Below, piece by piece: positions 1 through 52,392 of a stretch of DNA of 64,000 bases (positions within the stretch are counted from its first letter, which is position 1; each line of letters starts with the position of its first letter). The position numbers and the translations under genes are program-made. The stretch is from Sporodiniella umbellata. Taxonomy: Eukaryota; Mucoromycota; Mucoromycetes; Mucorales; Rhizopodaceae. The notes under the pieces were generated by a model. The model ran no database searches. It saw only the letters and a program-made list of their open reading frames with translations, and was not told where the DNA came from. The stretch is from contig JAIXMR010000003.1 of assembly GCA_025677835.1 (NCBI GenBank), positions 1 to 64,000 on the forward strand, written 5' to 3'.

Positions 1-2375
1 CAAATAGTGAGGGCTGTAAATGTTTTGGCAACGTTTCGAAAAGAAAAGAAAAAGAAACTTTTTGGTTTAAATAAAGCCGAGTAGGCAAATTTAATAAGAG
101 AGGCTGTATATGAAGTTTCTGGGAAAGCCGTTAGTCAGGAATATGCTGTGTGATCTACTGGAAAAATAATTTACCTTTTTACAATTTAATAATATACAGT
201 CGCGAAAAAGTTTCTCCGTCTGTTTGAAGACAACCATAAAGGAAAAAAAAAGAAAAGTTACAGGGAATAGCCTCAATAAGATTTTTTTTGTAGCTGAAAC
301 AATTTGTTCAAGAGGCTGCCAACTAAATCAATTCATATTCCCCCAAAAATCACGTCGGTGAAATTTTTGTTTTCTTGTAATTCTATTCTTTTATGTTCTT
401 CTACTTGCAGTGAATTTTAAGTTTAATACTGTTTTAGCTGATGATGTCGTTACCTCTTAATGGTTCTGATTTATAAATACGTAATCGTCATATAGTATTA
501 GGTATTGGCCATAAAACTACAGTTATTAAAAAAAAATTATACTGATTTCATTTGATGGCTATAAGGAAATTAATGTAAATGTGTCGAATACAAGCTGTCA
601 GTTATGCTTGTGTTACCAGTATTGTAGTTTTGCTTTAATGTTGTGTAACAGTCTTTATGGTTTGGGGTAGTATTACAAAACATGGCGGGTGGGGCCAATG
701 GCCAACTTTTTTTTTTAAAAGATTTCTAATTTCGATTGTCAACGACGAAGCAATCCCATGGAGTAGAATATTTGGATTGTATGAACGCTTGATAAAAACG
801 CCCCATGATTTGTTCTAGATTGAAACAGACTACAAAACGTCAGTAAAGTCATTTTTTCTTTTTTGTGTTAAAGTAAATACGGATACTTCCAAACACAAGC
901 CAGTATATCGCTCATTGAATACAAAAATGCTTCATATGCGTTACTACAGGATTGATCAACAAAAACAAAAGTGGGCTAAGAAATTACGAAAAAAAGCTTT
1001 TCATGGAATTTGTTGTGAGAGCATGCAGACGTTGGTCGCTCCCATTAGTCTATCAACAGTAGTAAAAAACAATACTATACTATAACAGTAATATTTCTTT
1101 CTTTTTGATAGTGTGGGACTCGTCAATCCAAGATTTTTCTAGTTTTCCGCAATACTCAAAAGTCCTATATGGGTATTTAATGAAAACTGATATTTTTTTT
1201 AAAAAAAAACATTTGATATGTGTGAATAATTTATTATCTGCTTATAATTTGTAGTGTTATTGGTTATTTCCCCTTTGGCTTACAAAATGTGTTTTGGTTG
1301 ACGGTTCCTTTGCTTAAAATGACCGACTTTGTTAAGTCTTCTGTACAGCAGACTTCAAAATCATCAACTTTTTTTGTTAGTTTTTCCACATTTTCTTTGT
1401 TTTACTCGCAAAAAAATATACATGTCTCTTTTTCCCTAATAATAACCTCCATATTCAAGAGAATAAAGAACAAGCTAACCGAGGGAGAAAAAGCAGTAAA
1501 TGTTTTGTCGATTTAGTTTAAACTGATGCTTACAAGGTAAATGACGTTTGAGTGTAAACTCTTACTCATAAGATTGACTAACTGTAAACTGACTATTAAA
1601 GGTGAGGATTTATTGGTCAAACTGGTACATAGTGGAATATTTTTGCTTCCTCTTCTAGACATCTGCATACAACCAAAAAAAGACGTCCTGAAACGGACGT
1701 TGAAATTTACCAGAAACAGAGAAGCGCGCAACGGTTGCAATGCTTCTGTATCGAGTCCTGATTGGTTTTTTGAGTTTGTAGGATAGTGTTTTAAAAATGA
1801 ATCTCCAATGATCAATGCATACACAATGGTTTATTATTTGTTTACCTAATATTTCCCAAACTGGCAAATGTAAAGTTTGTATCGTATTCATACAACAGCC
1901 CAAATCAAATATTATTCAAATGCTCAGTTAGGCAGCTTCTAAAATAAAAAAATACGTATGTTTATATATCCTTTTCCTCTTTTTTTTTCTACCAAGAAAC
2001 CTCAATGTCATAAAAACAAAGAGCAAACCGGCTAATAGTCAAAAACTATTGCTTCCCGAAATATAGTGTTTTCCGCACAGACCACAACGTTTACGTATTG
2101 CCCTAAACCGAATTGGTTACTAAGCACTTTTTTTTTCACAGCTGCCAACGAAAGGAGGTATTTATCTTAGTTTTTATGTGAGGCGTGGCTATAGTGTTTT
2201 TCTTCTGCTGTGTCACATTACGTTTTTCAGGTTAAATCTGGATATTCGCACTAAAACAGAAACCCTCAAGGTGAACAGGAAAAAAGGTTGATGTACGTAA
2301 CTGAAATTTGATTGGCCATTGATATTTGCTTTTTTTTAGAGTACCAAAAGACAGCCTCGAGTTTTTTCTCTCAAC
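1..2375. other. Gene-free stretch, no supported feature
   Basis: The stretch is AT-rich with scattered A and T runs. Short open frames occur on both strands at 1289-1906 but overlap one another, lack family signatures and are not joined by convincing splice sites. A T-run followed directly by an A-run lies at about 1192-1209. I see no RNA gene. Confidence 0.5.
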
Positions 2376-43016: not shown

Positions 43017-44145
43017 ATGGAGTTGCCTCAGGTGGGAAAATACTGCCAACTCCAAAACTGCAGCTCACTTGACTTTTTGCCAGTTACTTGCCCTTCTTGT
43101 CAAAAAACGTTTTGGTAAAACAACAAAAGACCACAAAACAGGACAAAACTTTATACTGATCTGATAAAAAGTGGAGATCACCGACTCCCCATCAATCATA
43201 ATTGCTTACAGCAAAACCAAATCGATGTTTTGAAATGCGAAAAGTGCTCTAAACTAATCAAGTCCCCACCGGGATTGAGCTCTGAAACCACAGTAACTTT
43301 AAATACATCTTGATATTTCTTTTGGTATCTTTTAACCCATAACGTAGCTTCGGGAACATATACAGTCAAACTGCGTTTTACATAGAGTACAAGAAATAGG
43401 AGCATTTAATAGAGAGTGTGCATTAAAAGGGTGTTGCGATGTTGATGTACGTGTTGGTCCTGTTTTATGTGAAGGATGCAACAGAAAATATTGTTTGAGG
43501 TACATACTAGTGTTGTTTGTATGTTCCTAATATATATTTGATAGACACAGGCACCCATCGTCGCATGAATGTACTTCTCTGTTGGCAAACGAAAAAAGAA
43601 AGTTAGAAAGAAAAGCTGCTGCACAAGAGCAAGTAGCTAAGGTCTTCAAATTGCCTAATCAGCCAGCAAAAGACAAAACAATCGCTCCATCAACAAAAAC
43701 TAATACAGGCAATATGGTGGAACTTATGAAATTGAAGTCAAAAGCCAAAGGCGACCCTTCCGTTTCTGTTACTTCACGTATTTATCTTTATACTGAATTC
43801 CCCTCATCATCAAAAATGGAACGTGTTTGCGTCTACTTTGACAAGGTAAAACAAAAAATTGAATATATTATGCTGAAGCTAAGATTTTTTTTAGAGTAAA
43901 TCGGTCGGTAGAGCACTTGATATTTTGGCCAACATGTCCAAAATGACGAATAAGAACAACGTTCTTTCTTCAAGCGACCCAGAGGTAAGATCGAAGCGAA
44001 TAGACTGACTAATTTATTTTATTAGCGTCTATGTTTGTACAAGTATCCTGAAATGACGATACTAGACAACTCTTTACCTTTGGAAGCAAACCTAAAAAAT
44101 ATGGATTTAATTTTGTTGGAAAAACAAAGCTTTATTTCACTTTAA
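43017..44145 (+). CDS. AN1-type zinc finger protein, ZFAND1/Cuz1-like
   Basis: In yeast and man this family links Cdc48/p97 and the proteasome during arsenite and stress-granule responses. Exons 43017-43114, 43172-43292, 43348-43499, 43545-43845, 43895-43984 and 44026-44145 give 293 residues. AN1 finger 1 runs from KYCQLQNC, FLPVTCPSCQKTFC to GDHRLPINHNC. AN1 finger 2 runs from ECALKGCC and LCEGCNRKYCLRHRH to SSHEC. The C-terminal ubiquitin-like part (RIYLYTEFP, VGRALDILANMSKMTNKNN) is also typical of Cuz1. The reconstructed splice junctions complete both zinc-binding sets, which supports the model strongly. Confidence 0.9.
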
Positions 44146-44405: not shown

Positions 44406-45854
44406 ATGTCTATCATAAGTAGAGAACGAGCGCTCTGCATGCTCCATTGTGCCCCTTTTACTAAGGAAAACGTAAAGAAGTATGCTCAAGTGATTGAGCG
44501 CTCAGAAAATTTAGAAATTTGCTACATGGAAAATCCAATGGAGCCCATGATTACATCAAATTTTAAAATAAATGGATGTCCTTTTCGATTTCATAGATAT
44601 CCTAGTGAGACTGTCTTAGTCCCAACTAATGAAACAAAAAAGACAGAATCAGAGGAAGCTGTAAAAGCAGTAATAAGGCCCACTACAGCGACAAAACCTA
44701 ATACAGTGAAGAAAGATGCTGCAAAGAAAAGAGCTGAAGAGAAAAACACTACCATTCCAGAAAATATCGAAAAGGGCACAACGGGAAAAGTTGATAGGGC
44801 ACTTCTCCTTAGTAAGAATTCTTTCTGTTTTCTGTTTTTTTAGTTTTCGAAAGCACTATTGTTAAGTTTTAATAATAGTCAACCATGCCCAAGTAGCCGA
44901 ATTCTTAAACGTAGTATATCTTACACAATATCCAAGAAATCCAGAACTATATGATTTCAAGAAAGTTAAATCCGAGGAAATATTAGATCTTGTCAGGTTC
45001 TACACCTATTTATTTGACAAAAAAAGTGTCAAAGGTTTGGTACGTTGGTTCGCGCGCGCATCGGTCAATATTTACAACGCAGAACTTTGCAGAGACAATG
45101 TATTATACAGTACAGAAAAACGCTTATCTTATTCCCGGGAGCTATATGTGATGAAGAAGGAATTTATAAGTAAGGATAGAGCTAAAATAATTCCAATAGA
45201 TTCATTAATGACGGGCAATACTTTAGTATATGCTTTGAAGGAAGTTGTTGCAACTATACCCACTTATCCAAAGCTTGTAAATAACTTCAAAGAAGAAGAC
45301 TGCTGTATTGTTGGCTACTTAAAACTTCCAAAACGCTTTTACAATACAGAGCTCTTTTTAAAAGCGTTAGGTAATATGTGCAGTAAATTAAGATCAAAAC
45401 TGCTGGTAGATCGCATCTTTGTATCTAAATCCGATAAGAGCTCTAGATACAGCGATAGCCAAATGAACGAGCTTTATGTTGTAAAATATCTACAGCTTGA
45501 AGGCAATACAGATGGTAGTTTTTTTTTTTTTTTTTTTTTTTGAAAAGCTACAAAAATAATGTTTTATCCATTTGATAGATATGTTGCAATTTATTAGAAA
45601 CAAAAAGAAAGTATGTCTGGTAACTCTGGCTAACCGTAGTAGTTTAATTGACTGGGAAAAAATACAATGGCTTACAAAGTAATGCAAAAAAAAAAAAAAG
45701 AATACAATATACAACAAAGCAAGAACTAATATTGGTAGCTAGAAACTATCAAAATATAAGCCAAATAATTATAAACGAGCCAAAAAATAGCAATGCAGTA
45801 GCCATATACGACAGTCAAAAATCATGGGATGATTTCGAGCTATTAGAAATTTAG
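44406..45854 (+). CDS. Tandem-family paralogue 1, resolvase-like C-domain, function unknown
   Basis: Exons 44406-44811, 44879-45514, 45579-45678 and 45743-45854 give 417 residues. The start was chosen by alignment with the two copies downstream; an ATG at 44397 adds three residues. Residues 1-75 form the shared N-module (RERALCMLHCAPF, NLEICYMENPMEPMI, NGCPFRFHRYPSE). A Lys/Ala/Thr linker spans about 76-135. The C-terminal alpha/beta domain has a first strand CCIVGYLKLP (about 277), helix then strand VDRIFVSKSD, DMLQFIR, and strand VCLVTLANRSSL. The order matches a serine recombinase catalytic domain, but the Y-x-R-x-S and D-R-L-x-R active-site motifs are lost here. Exon 4 begins after an inferred intron at 45679-45742 containing a poly(A) run. 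It is not a known enzyme by these residues. Confidence 0.75.
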
Positions 45855-46863
45855 TTATATACTAAGTCAATTTGTAATACTTTTTGAAAAGTAAAGAGAG
45901 CGTTTTTACAGTACTTCAGAAATTCTCAAAGTATTAGGGTTGTCCTTTTTGTTACTATTTCTAATTTTCAGATGAATTCTGTACTCTCCATTTTAAATGA
46001 TCTACACCTATTATTTCTAAAGACAAAGGGATTGGTTTTTGTTTGATACTCTTCTCGGCATAAAAAAGCGCAAATAAAAGATTCTTATCTGTTATAACAT
46101 TCAAATAAACTTGAACAAAAAACTACCTGTCAGGCAAATCTGAGTTTAGGGTGACATAATTTGAATGCTTTTTTTTTTTTTTAACAATAACCGAGCTATG
46201 TCTTGATCTCACTCTGAATTGATTATGTTCTTTGTTTTATCTCTAGCACGCTTTCATGCACAAATAGTGATCAATCTTCAGTTAACCCAACTGTCTTGGC
46301 CGTCTTTTTCCCTAAACACATATGTACCAGTGGCTCTTTTTTTTTTTTAGCTGTCCTACTAATATTGCTGTTTGGTCAGCAAGTAAAGGTGTAGTATTGT
46401 CCTTTTGTTTTCTTCCTACGCAACTGCTTTTTTTTTTTTTTGCTCTCGAAAAAAGAAGACAAATTGGGATTTATAATAGAAATCTAAAACTGATTATTTG
46501 TTTATTATGTTCTGTTTATCATAAAAGTCGTATTTTGAAGCGATTTTATAAGCTCGAATAGCCTCCCTCTCTATTTCCGTACAAAACGATGCTGGCCAAC
46601 CTATCAATGAAAAGCTCACTGTATAATACACCCTTTCAATTGAGAGTCCTCTAGAAACAATATGGATTTTTAATTCATTTCTTATGCTTGAATTTCAATT
46701 GATAAACAGATCTGAACTATTTGTTAAATCGCACCCTACACGGTTATAATATTCAAAGATGACAAAGGTCATGTATTAATTGAAAAGCTTTCGGAGTTTT
46801 ATAGTAGCTTTTCACTTTTTCCAACTGCGTTTAATTTTTTTTTTTTCTCTGAACTTGTCCCAA
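45855..46863. other. Spacer between paralogues 1 and 2
   Basis: 1.0 kb with T runs at 46170-46183, 46337-46349 and 46427-46441. I see no decayed extra copy of the family and no RNA gene. Confidence 0.5.
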
Positions 46864-48550
46864 ATGCCTACTCTAACCCGAGAGCAAGCACTCTGTATAC
46901 TTCATCACGCACCTTTCAATGAGAAAAATGCAAAAAAGTATGTTGAAATGCTCGACAATTCAGAAGGCTTAGAAGTTTGTTACATGGAAGACCCCTTGGA
47001 ACCCATAATTATGTCAAATTTCAGAATAAACAGACATCCTTTCCGATTCCAAAGATACTCCAATGAAAACCTTTCAAGTCCTATCAGCGAAGCGAGAAAA
47101 CTCAATTCAGCTAAAAAAGTGGATACAGTGAAACAAGTCGAAGCAGAGAAGCAGGTCGAATCAGCGAAAAAAGCTAGTATATTTAAACAAGTCGAGACAG
47201 TGAATCAAGCTAATGCAACAGATGAATTTGCTAAGCCAAAACAGCTCAATACATTAAAAACGGTTAGTGTAGCAAAACAGGCCACTGCAGCGACACTAGT
47301 AAAAAAAGAAAAACCGGCTGATAACAGAATTATAATCAAAAGGCAAACTTTGACCAGGACAAAAAAACATATATACAGAATAGCTAGTACCAATGGGGAA
47401 AAAGCTGTACTAAAAAAGGTTGATGAATCAATGCGTCTCGGTAAAGAAAAAGAAAAAGAAAAGGTCAATATCTGATTTTGATTTGAGTAGTTACTTGCGC
47501 CCAAGCGATTGAGCTTCTAAACTCAGTATACCTCCCGAACTGTCCAGAAGATCCAGAATCGTATGTGGTTAAACAAGTCAGATTAGATGACATTTTGCAG
47601 TTTTTGAAAAAATACAGCAATGTATTTGACAATACAAAACATAACTATCTCGGAACCTGGCTAAACTTAGCAAACGCTGCTCTTATGAAAACTCCAAAAT
47701 GTAAAGGGATGGAGATAAATCATGCTTTTGTTCAGAATACATACACTTTCCGGGAACTATTTGTGTTGGAAGAAAGCTTTCACAGTAAGACAGAGGTTTA
47801 TTTTTTTTTTTATTTTTCTAGAAAAAAAAAAAAAGACTTTAGCAATAACACATGTATTGTTGTAGTGGAACTACTACAAGACATTCTTTCTCATACATCC
47901 AATCATGTGGAACATATAAAAGCCTTGAAAGCCAACGATTATTGTATTGTTGGCTATACACGCAAATCTGCTTCTAAGATTAGCCATTTGTTTGCACTGA
48001 GAATATTAAAACGAATATGTAAAGCACTGAAGTCCGTTTCGTTGGTGGATCATGCTTTCTATAAGTGCTACTGCAGTAAAGTACACCGGGGCCTTGAATC
48101 AATAGCAACCGAAGAAGAAAATAGTAAAGTGTGGTTTGATGGTGAGGCAAAAGGTAAATGAGGGCTCTTGAAAAAGCAAATTCTAAAGCTCAGGAGACGT
48201 GATCTCTTTATAGAGATGAAAAAGCTCATTAGTAAGCAAAAAGGAAATGTTTGCCTTGTCGTTATAGATAGCCTGGGTACATCAGGCGATTACGAACATC
48301 TAAGAGAGATTGTCAAGTAAAATATAAAGCTTAAAACAAAATGATTAGTCGATAGCAAAACAGTCTAACAATGGCTAATAGAAATGCTCCAAACATTCAA
48401 GAGGTCATTATTAATTCGCTGCTTACAAATAACAGGACGTATATTTACAAGAGAAGTGATGTTCTAGAGGACCCAAACATATTTGAGAACCTCAAGCAAA
48501 TGAGAAAAAAATTTGGAGAATTCAAGCAATTTATCAATTTCAACGCATGA
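46864..48550 (+). CDS. Tandem-family paralogue 2, retains resolvase-like Y-x-R-K-S motif
   Basis: Exons 46864-47440, 47491-47784, 47836-48153, 48214-48316 and 48382-48550 give 486 residues. The N-module reads TREQALCILHHAPF, GLEVCYMEDPLEPII, NRHPFRFQRYSNE. The linker is longest here and contains loose repeats around KQVE and KKA (residues 80-190). The C-domain holds YCIVGYTRKS at about 326-335: Tyr331, Arg333 and Ser335 fall where serine recombinases have their catalytic Y-x-R-x-S. The later strand reads VCLVVIDSLGTSGDYEHL, aligning with the recombinase LVVxKLDRLGR strand but without the Arg residues. The intron 47785-47835 is a multiple of three, so a version retaining it stays open. An ATG at 46780 is in frame but outside the conserved region. 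Function unknown. Confidence 0.75.
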
Positions 48551-48724
48551 TACAGCTATTTTTATTAGACACTCTTCTAGTGTGACTTTTTTTTTTTTAA
48601 AAAAAAAAAAAAAAAGGTTGAGGAAGAGCATTAAATCTGTCAATTGTCTTTCTGCACTCCTTGTCCGCTGCTTTTTTCGTTTTTTTTTTTTTTTTTTTTT
48701 TTTTAGCTTGCTAACAACTGTTAT

Positions 48725-49819
48725 ATGGCCATTATAACCAAAGAAATAGCAATCTGTATACTTTACCATGTGCCTTTTAATGACCGCAATGTAAAAAAGT
48801 ATTTGCGGTTGCTTGAGGGCTTGGAAAATCTCGAAGTTTGTTACATGGACAACCCTTTGGAGCCTATGATTCTGTCAAATCTGAAAATCAACAGATATCC
48901 GCTTCGATTCAAAAAATACCCTGCTGCGATTGCTTTAAACTCTATTGATGTAATGCCTCTAGCTAAAAAGGCAGAGGAAGAGCCAAAGTTGACAAAAAAA
49001 GCCTCTGTTATAACAGCAGCGAAAAAAACCAAAGGAGATAAAAAAACTATGCTCGGTAAAAAAAAAAAAAAAAAAAAAACAAACAAATCTATGCCTCCAT
49101 GATATATAAACACACAGACATATGTTTTGTATTCAACTGACAAGTATTGGTTTTGAATAGCTCATTTACCAGAAATTCTGGAATTTGTAAACTCAGTATT
49201 TCTTCCCTATGATCCATGCAACCCCACAAAATATGAGTGCCGAGAAGTTACACGCGAGGAATATTTACGCTTTCTGGATGAAAACTCACTTATCTATCAA
49301 GGACCGTCGAAAACGTTAGAACATATGCTAAAGCTTGGTGGGGCTATTCTTATTGATAGCCCAATCCTTGAACTAGACTTTCAGCTCGTCAATGGTAAGA
49401 AAAAATGGTCATGGACGCGTCGACTGTTTGTATTGAAAGAAGAGTTTAGAAGTAATAATAACAATAAAAAAAAAAAGATACTTCTTTTCGTCGAGTTATC
49501 AACATTTATTCTTGTAGTGCTCATTTTAAAAAACATTGTTTCTTCTTTTAGTATACATAAGAACTTATTGAAAGCAATGAAAAAGCAAGATTACTGTATT
49601 ATTGGCTATGCATGCGTACCTCCTGGTATTTTGGATGAGGAAACCAAAGATAGATACATAAAACATGCTTGCATCACTCTGAGGGGAAGAGGCTATGCGG
49701 ATTACGTTTTTGCATCCTATGATGCTCACTATGATGGTTCGATCTATGATCGTGATCAGACAAAGCGCAATGTATGGGCACAAGACAGGCCGTTTGACGG
49801 AGATACAGCGGGTATATTG

Positions 49820-49850
<31 letters not shown>

Positions 49851-50236
49851 TCTGAAAGTATAAACTTGTTTTTGTTAGATATGCTGCAGCTCATCACAGA
49901 AAAAGAATTAGTATGTTTGAGTGTCGTGGGTTATTTCGGGTTATCAAGTAGTAGTTACGAATTTAAAGAATTTGTCGAGTAACGTAAAAAAAAAAAAAAA
50001 AAAAAAAAAAAGGGAAAGAGACGTTTTTATTGATAACTGGCAATAGAAATAATCCGAGTATCCAGATGATTTCTATAGGTTCTCTGTCTTTTAGTAAGAC
50101 ACCTTCTTTGTACGATAGAAAAAGTGTATTAGAAGATACGCAGATAATGGATATATTCGATAGCAAAGAGCATGATTGTTTTTTAGACCGTCAAAATTCA
50201 GTATTGAATAATACAAGTGGCTCTAGACCTGTGTAG
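48725..50236 (+). CDS. Tandem-family paralogue 3, resolvase-like C-domain
   Basis: Exons 48725-49055, 49161-49811, 49879-49978 and 50047-50236 give 423 residues. The N-module reads TKEIAICILYHVPF, NLEVCYMDNPLEPMI, NRYPLRFKKYPA. The linker is short. The C-domain has YCIIGYACVP (about 256), VFASYDAHYDGS, YDRDQTKR, DMLQLI and VCLSVVGYFGLSSSSYEF. The first motif keeps Tyr but has lost the catalytic Arg and Ser. Poly(A) runs occupy introns at 49820-49849 and 49985-50011. Exon 3 is exactly 100 nt, as in paralogue 1, and begins and ends in the same phases. A part of exon 2 (FRSNNNNKKKKILL) is low-complexity and may hide another small intron. It lies 174 bp after paralogue 2. Confidence 0.75.
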
Positions 50237-50625: not shown

Positions 50626-51343
50626 TCAATGTGCTTTTCTGTTTATTTCTTTTCCAGTACCTTCTTTTGGCTCTTCTGTGGTTTGAGAGACGCCTGGGTA
50701 AGGCGAATACATGGGTAAGACATATTCTTGTATATGGTCTTTAGTGTAAGCGGTGTGAGAAGGCAGTTCGGAAGCAGTGGAGCCATAGTAACCGTATTGA
50801 TTGAGATTGGGAGGATAAGAATAAGCAGCGGGAGAAACGTCTTGCTTTATACCAGACGTATTGTTGTTATGATTGACGGGTTCTTTATGATCTGCTTGAA
50901 TTCTCGTTTGATCCTGCGTGCTTTCTTCTGTACAAGAGTTAAGGAGAAGAGCCAACATGATTGGATGAGGCGTACTTACGATTTGATTTCTGTCTCCTCT
51001 TGTAAGGACCACGCTTGATTCCTTTCTTACGTTCCTTTCTTACTGAACTCACACAGCTATCCGGTATACTGTATTTTACGCAACGATGACAAGGCCTTGC
51101 ATCGTCACATTTTTTGCAAGCTTTTTGACAATTGGCTTCATTTTATTTTTTGTTATTTTAACCTGACTTATTTCATATATAAAAAGAAGCCCAGGGACAC
51201 TTACTGCACGCATTTTTTACTTGTCTTCGCTTGCCCACTTGACTAGTGGAGTTCGGTTGCTCATTAGCTGATGAGTTTGTTTGTGGTTCGACATTGGCGT
51301 AAGATGGGTAAATGGAGGTATAGTAAACAGTCGTTGTCTGCAT
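50626..51343 (-). CDS. Zn2Cys6 binuclear cluster transcription factor
   Basis: Exons 51343-51205, 51135-50980 and 50927-50626 give 198 residues. The fungal zinc cluster is C-x2-C-x6-C-x5-C-x2-C-x6-C, read across the first intron as ACTNCQKACKKCDDARPCHRC followed by IPDSC. It is preceded by a basic linker KRRQVKNA and followed by RKERKKGIKRGPYKR, a conserved extension in one class of these factors. The rest is Gln/Asn/Tyr/Pro-rich (NLNQYGYYGST) and lacks the large fungal middle homology domain, so the protein is small. The in-frame upstream ATG (51412) precedes an unrelated hydrophobic stretch and is less likely. Targets are unknown. Confidence 0.85.
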
Positions 51344-52392
51344 ATTGTCTTTTTCTACATAAATATACGCAAGCAAAAAGTATGTAAAAAGTGGTGTATT
51401 TGTATATAGCAAAAAAAAAAAAAAGGAAAATGTTAAATTTCATCCAATTTCAAACCCTTCACCTTTCAAACCTTCTTTTGTTTTTAGCTTCAGTAACCGA
51501 AAAAAGAAGAAAGAAAAAAGTAATAAAAGAGAAAAAAAAAAAAAAAAGCGACTAAGCGGCGATAGAAACTGACCTACCCTTCTTTTTTATAACCCAAAAA
51601 AAAAAAAAAAAAAGACCAGATGACTGAAATTTTCTGTATCAAAACACGTTTTCCTTTTTTTTTTTAAAAAAAAAAAAAATATTTTCATCTTTCTTTGTTC
51701 TGATTTCAATTGGTTTACTTGTTACCGAAATAGAAAAAGGACTGTTTATACTCTATAAAGTGTTTATTTTATTTGGTGCATGTTTACGAAAACGCCCTGT
51801 TTTTCGCGAGAGAGTTTTTGATTGGATTAGAATTGTACACGTCATAATTTCCTGTATACATAATAAAGAAGAAGAAAAGAGAAATGGAACAAAGAAGAAA
51901 GATTGAGCTTTATTGTTTATTTGTTGAGAAAGTAGTATAGATGGCGGCGCTCAAATGATGAGGTGGTCCAAGCGATGGCAGAGAGTCTCCCAAAAAAAAA
52001 AAAAAAAAGGTGAGGATCTGCGTATTACTTTTAAAAGCCACCCAGTTGATGGATAGATGGTTTGAGTTTAGTCAAGAAGAGTGATGTCACGAAAAGAAAG
52101 AGAATAAATGGCTGTAAAAAAAAAAAAAAAACGTATACCCGGCTGGAAACGTCCTCAGAGAGATGTCATTGACATGTCACTGTTTGTACTATGAATTGAA
52201 CGTACTCTATGAGAATAATTGACGTCAGATGGTTCACTGACGATAACGTTTTGCCGACTTTTCAAGATTAAAAGAGAAAGAGAAAAGGTGTATCAAAGGC
52301 TTTTAAAAAGCTCAGTTTTTCTTTTTCTTTTTTGTTTTTTTTTTTTTTTTTTTGTTTTTCTTCAAACTTTTTACTCCCCACTCTCTTAAGCC
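51344..52392. promoter_or_regulatory. Long upstream region of cytochrome c gene
   Basis: 1.05 kb between divergent genes. Several A runs (51533-51547, 51596-51613, 51991-52008) and a T-then-A junction near 51656-51679 are present. A perfect cAMP-response-type palindrome TGACGTCA lies at 52220-52227, about 165 bp upstream of the cytochrome c start, with further TGACG/CGTCA-like half-sites nearby (52239, 51840). bZIP control is inferred. Confidence 0.4.
52220..52227. promoter_or_regulatory. CRE-type palindrome TGACGTCA in cytochrome c promoter
   Basis: Perfect bZIP palindrome about 165 bp upstream of the ATG. A second TGACG half-site follows at about 52238. Respiratory genes are often under bZIP or stress control in fungi, but the link here is inference. 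Confidence 0.35.

Follow-up and report, generated by a model that had tools for sequence, protein, structure and literature searches.

Three adjacent plus-strand genes at positions 44,406 to 50,236 of a 64,000-nucleotide stretch of Sporodiniella umbellata DNA (contig JAIXMR010000003.1, positions 1 to 64,000; the window) raise the question of whether this fungus has a working recombinase there or genes that use its fold in another way. An earlier note, made from the letters alone, had described them as tandem copies of an unnamed family with a resolvase-like domain, suggesting a domesticated and expanding recombinase-like system. We favor, with moderate confidence, the reading that the three genes, named A, B, and C, lie in tandem and belong to a Mucorales family descended from a serine recombinase, and that they are noncatalytic, binding DNA or partner proteins. 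The rebuilt genes are as follows.

44406-45854, plus strand: gene A, 5 exons (44406-44811, 44879-45169, 45227-45514, 45579-45678, 45761-45854), 392 amino acids (aa)
46864-48550, plus strand: gene B, 5 exons (46864-47440, 47488-47784, 47866-48153, 48214-48316, 48364-48550), 483 aa
48725-50236, plus strand: gene C, 5 exons (48725-49055, 49161-49451, 49518-49811, 49879-49978, 50047-50236), 401 aa

All frames are intact, and the intron phases 1,1,1,2 are common to the three genes; because the choice of splice sites relied on GT-AG ends, an open frame, and homology among the copies, the common phases are partly built in. An independent model, the public S. umbellata protein BY458DRAFT_497414 (P0001), covers 71% of A and has the first two joins of A identical. 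The three proteins are 28 to 45% identical to one another, with BLASTP E values of 1e-26 to 1e-51, far above chance. Three plus-strand genes of one architecture were recovered, as first proposed. The motifs quoted for them are present in the trio, except that B has EMKK for DMLQ and C has MISIGS for III-N. The proposed order of N-module, linker, and alpha/beta domain also holds, but a folded domain encoded by exon 2 (E2), lying after the linker and ahead of the alpha/beta domain, had been overlooked. Exon profiles placed the domains as listed here, where the recombinase-like fold is inferred from the homologue P0002.

44412-44603, plus strand: N-module (exon 1, E1) of A, predicted folded
46870-47061, plus strand: N-module (E1) of B
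48731-48922, plus strand: N-module (E1) of C
44887-45165, plus strand: winged-helix-like domain (E2) of A, also by weak fold comparison
47499-47780, plus strand: winged-helix-like domain (E2) of B
49172-49447, plus strand: winged-helix-like domain (E2) of C
45235-45851, plus strand: recombinase-like domain (E3 to E5) of A, first motif YLKLP
47874-48499, plus strand: recombinase-like domain (E3 to E5) of B, first motif YTRKS
49526-50164, plus strand: recombinase-like domain (E3 to E5) of C, first motif YACVP

For A, a disordered linker is predicted (residues 75 to 125, predicted local distance difference test [pLDDT] < 50). E1 probably makes protein-protein contacts, and E2 probably binds DNA.

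The resolvase-like fold was borne out by way of the homologue. When the predicted structure of P0002 was compared by a second aligner, the top 14 listed rows were all serine recombinases, leading by 1.6 to 3.6 Z units, with 11 to 20% identity in the structure rows; the catalytic-domain fold of the superfamily was thus found in this homologue. Profile-profile comparison with gamma-delta resolvase (hhalign) gave roughly double the score of the best shuffle. Among viral structure rows, COG2452 integrase-resolvases, which are TnpA-like, ranked best. Foldseek, by contrast, matched nothing in the PDB at E ≤ 0.001, and its 50 listed rows contained no serine recombinase. PF00239 (Resolvase) was absent both from the Pfam matches of A to C and from the 25 families hit most often by 33 homologues. 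Over this genome PF00239 had no match at E ≤ 1, whereas 10 of 14 control genomes do match. With these caveats, the predicted structure supports a serine-recombinase-like fold for the C-terminal domain.

In line with the earlier note, which knew of no named family with this combination, Pfam, NCBIfam, and PHROGs yielded none for the trio or its homologues. PDB sequence searches likewise returned no named family, their best rows being AI-designed TIM barrels, with a few chance rows in one of the searches. Pattern searches gave 33 matches on viral contigs and 590 on prokaryotic contigs, with no relative among them, and no paper on this family was found in the open-licence PMC literature. This large fungal family is apparently undescribed.

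How much of the active site is left? The family rows, counted column by column where a letter is present, were collected in part with words such as GYARK and so over-represent the first motif. In them, Y is present in 140 of 140 rows, R in all of 141 (after rounding), and S in 96%; Y-R-S is intact in 135 of 140. Conservation elsewhere in P0002 numbering is 95% for R257 and 82% for D294. The YARKS motif of the family is likely in register with YARVS of serine recombinases. In bacterial serine recombinases D-R-x-x-R is catalytic, and R68 and R71 are essential. In the family, the R68 place holds Y or F in 93% of rows and R in 0 of 121, while at the R71 place 97% of rows have L or I and a single row of 118 has R; D-[YF]-A-G-[LI], itself conserved, replaces D-R-x-x-R, this equivalence being drawn from the strand order of the model. 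The hhalign comparison sets LDYAGLTTN against the fourth strand of gamma-delta, with which the strand order of the model disagrees; we followed the strand order.

Judged from these columns, the family keeps Y-x-R-K-S and the conserved R-D, the putative nucleophile half of the active site, and has the arginine half replaced. Ordinary strand exchange therefore seems unlikely unless other residues substitute. Because D-R-x-x-R is replaced and PF00239 does not match, we call the family serine-recombinase-like and do not count it among the members of the superfamily.

The trio departs further. At the Y-R-K-S places A has Y-K-L-P and C has Y-C-V-P, with only B keeping Y-R-K-S. The second motif is altered in B, which retains its aspartate; this residue is Gly in C, and A is gapped there in the alignment (Ala by eye). 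That the three genes form a recombinase system that works is not supported: almost every family row lacks D-R-x-x-R, and Y-R-S is lost from A and C as well. With these catalytic residues missing, the trio copies are probably inactive as recombinases and probably serve to bind DNA or protein partners instead of recombining DNA. Other family members may be recombinase-like in action.

The family is multicopy, with many places in the genome and a spread over Mucorales in profile searches. A nine-sequence profile matched 33 proteins of 7994 scored candidates and a 20-sequence core profile 192 of 1289, of which 120 are listed; the two lists overlap and include a few proteins of S. umbellata and many unnamed metagenome proteins. 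The genera named among the listed matches are presumably all Mucorales, three of them by look-up. Nearly all named members listed are hypothetical, uncharacterized, or unnamed proteins, and the UniRef name of both P0032 and P0116 is “Resolvase/invertase-t...”. A core tree of 121 sequences, which holds three S. umbellata members twice, scatters the members of this species over several branches, with long ones for A, B, and C. A Rhizopus arrhizus protein (set P0023, P0031, P0128, P0004) is 90 to 91% identical to Thamnidium pieces but 76% to the Sporodiniella protein; Rhizopus and Sporodiniella belong to the same family, Rhizopodaceae. This may reflect horizontal transfer or, given a Rhizopus contig of 1,839 bases, contamination.

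Within the 25.9-Mb S. umbellata assembly, whose contigs carry C-numbers, the N-module of B found at least 23 places and that from C128 at least 31 at E ≤ 0.01, the two sets overlapping. Exon profiles run over 26 stretches, mapping whole genes, fragments, and single modules, matched exons 3 to 5 at 25 places by our own count. Y-x-R-x-S is kept at 9 of 14 readable places reached by the N-module search, fragments included (B, C187, a C187 fragment, C192, C134, C135, C155, the second copy on C125, and C79), and lost at five (A, C, C122 at 186 kb, C98, and C128). “Expanding” is plausible as a description, although the copies are old and divergent and many of them are fragments.

We regard it as unlikely that an unrecognised element has the family, though hardly A and C, as its active recombinase or transposase, in which the serine would attack DNA and other conserved residues (K212, R236, and R257 of P0002) would replace the lost arginines. 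The nearly invariant Y-x-R-K-S (135 of 140 rows, in the word-enriched set), the conservation of the replacing motif, the dispersal of copies and fragments, and the inverted repeats around several members would all suit such an element, as would the Thamnidium-Rhizopus likeness (90 to 91%, against 76 to 84% to Sporodiniella), although the 1.8-kb Rhizopus contig may be a contaminant. Against it stand the absence of R68 and R71 and an inspection by eye of 8 repeat pairs, which showed no evident shared ends or target-site duplication.

That A, B, and C are decaying copies without function is likewise unlikely in our view. Catalytic positions are lost in A and C, the branches are long, and fragments are many elsewhere in the genome, but each gene has five open exons with usable splice sites, and conservation is unevenly placed. 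Mean identity in exon 1 is 57% among A to C versus 36% among other genome members (7); the corresponding values are 31% versus 28% (8) for exon 2, 26% versus 38% (8) for exon 3, 33% versus 43% (7) for exon 4, and 30% versus 38% (5) for exon 5. Pairwise E1 rates among A to C are 0.24 to 0.28 for nonsynonymous (dN) and 0.95 to 1.59 for synonymous substitution (dS), dN lying well below dS, and those of the whole protein are 0.66 to 0.67 and 1.28 to 3.29; three other members have E1 dN of 0.39 to 0.61 and whole dN of 0.53 to 0.59, with dS mostly saturated. Selection on A to C therefore seems to bear on the N-module and to leave the recombinase core to drift. “Domesticated” fits this pattern of constraint, but not as a statement about function.

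Under the reading that we favor, a recombinase of a mobile element would have given rise to a family with E1, a disordered linker, E2, and a C-terminal recombinase fold. The first motif is gone from A and C, the second is altered in B, and the N-modules of all three are unusually well conserved. The trio would then act without catalysis: E2 would hold DNA and E1 would pair with itself or with other family members, making A to C regulators or dominant-negative partners.

Separate E1 copies occur near other family genes. At 9 of the 25 places (C192, C187, C135, C167, C125, C196, C90, C36, and C128) an opposite-strand E1 faces the 3' end of the gene within 700 bases; five of the nine are ATG-to-stop open reading frames (ORFs) of 62 to 86 aa, two are open without ATG, and two are partial.

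C192:105810-106043, minus strand: E1-only ORF, ATG-to-stop
C187:111495-111719, plus strand: E1-only ORF, ATG-to-stop
C135:165635-165856, minus strand: E1-only ORF, ATG-to-stop
C167:112127-112315, plus strand: E1-only ORF, ATG-to-stop
C128:127510-127770, plus strand: E1-only ORF, ATG-to-stop

Four of these five converge with a family gene or its exons (stop-to-stop gaps of 75, 161, and 100 bases in three measured pairs), and the C128 ORF adjoins an exon-3 remnant; compared with its relative on C125, this solo E1 has dN 0.12 and dS 0.59. Such ORFs are possibly a separate small regulator gene. Inverted E1 copies as exchangeable first exons were set aside as the main reading and are kept only within the inversion system described next, given that the ATG-to-stop ORFs favor a separate small gene and that no strong splice donor was seen by eye. 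No inverted E1 was found downstream of C98, C122 at 415 kb, C120, C134, C122 at 186 kb, or C79, nor in the window, where a 31-residue E1 match at 43247-43336 (E 0.037) is at chance level.

Very doubtful is a nuclear DNA-inversion system, in which an E2-to-E5 cassette would lie between inverted upstream-plus-E1 copies, either E1 driving it after inversion, with E1-only ORFs as idle first exons or regulators and A to C as fixed descendants. Two inverted E1 copies surround the cassette at C192, C187, C125, and C36; at C135, C167, C196, C90, and C128 the E1 detected faces the cassette 3' end, as after inversion, and on C135 a remnant of the other E1, 16 residues long, is left. The paired copies are alike in their 5' halves (76% on C192 and 92% on C187) and less so in their 3' halves (35% and 56%), the likeness stopping near residue 50.

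Several repeats accompany the family. C36:42348-43043 and 44561-45256 form a 696-base inverted repeat, 99.9% identical, around a family copy, which a recent inversion, gene conversion, or an inverted duplication could have produced. A repeat of about 390 bases, dispersed near family members and 71 to 96% identical (C155:25-355 and 1421-1811, C122:355830-356218, C187:110484-111249 [split] and 88872-89101, C36:43127-43463), is perhaps a small nonautonomous element. Inverted repeats as transposon ends were withdrawn: the C155 arms are this dispersed repeat, and a 423-base piece of the C36 arm has no second place in the genome. Another repeat of about 314 bases, 91% identical (C135:164118-164469, C125:58174-58505), stops right before the full E1 on C125 and right before residue 48 of the E1 remnant on C135.

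Highly improbable is that the C-terminal domain is another alpha/beta domain, such as the C-terminal one of sugar C-methyltransferases, with a convergent resolvase likeness, given the Z lead and top 14 rows of serine recombinases and a profile-profile score about twice the best shuffle.

The window also holds a remnant of a further family N-module, and, by eye, the trio's neighbors look like a cysteine-rich zinc-finger gene (43119-43950, plus strand) and a Zn2Cys6-type regulator (50939-51439, minus strand).

1285-1401, minus strand: N-module remnant, exon profile E1 1e-9; by C128 N-module search 1327-1449, E 0.009, with one stop
877-966, minus strand: weak E2 match by that remnant, exon profile E 0.051

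To our knowledge, serine recombinases are rarely reported in nuclear genomes. An order-wide, multicopy family with its nucleophile motif kept and its arginine motif rewritten would test how far the active site can change and whether the recombinase fold was reused for regulation.

In small serine recombinases (gamma-delta, Tn3 resolvase, Sin) the DNA-binding domain follows the catalytic domain; the family probably has the reverse order and lacks two catalytic arginines. Fanzor-associated serine recombinases of eukaryotes and giant viruses are IS607-like, lie beside Fanzor2, and offer a parallel to this family in being serine recombinases of eukaryotic or viral mobile DNA; for Rhizopus, Mucor, and Phycomyces the relevant passages name Fanzor1 but not a serine recombinase, and they do not describe this family (PMC3627910). 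IS607 TnpA carries a DNA-binding domain before a C-terminal serine-recombinase domain with well-conserved catalytic residues (PMC6188088). The family may share that order, its putative DNA-binding domain E2 being winged-helix-like by weak fold comparison, but differs in its replaced D-R-x-x-R, its extra N-module and linker, its multi-intron genes, and the presence at some loci of inverted repeats, a feature absent from IS607 elements.
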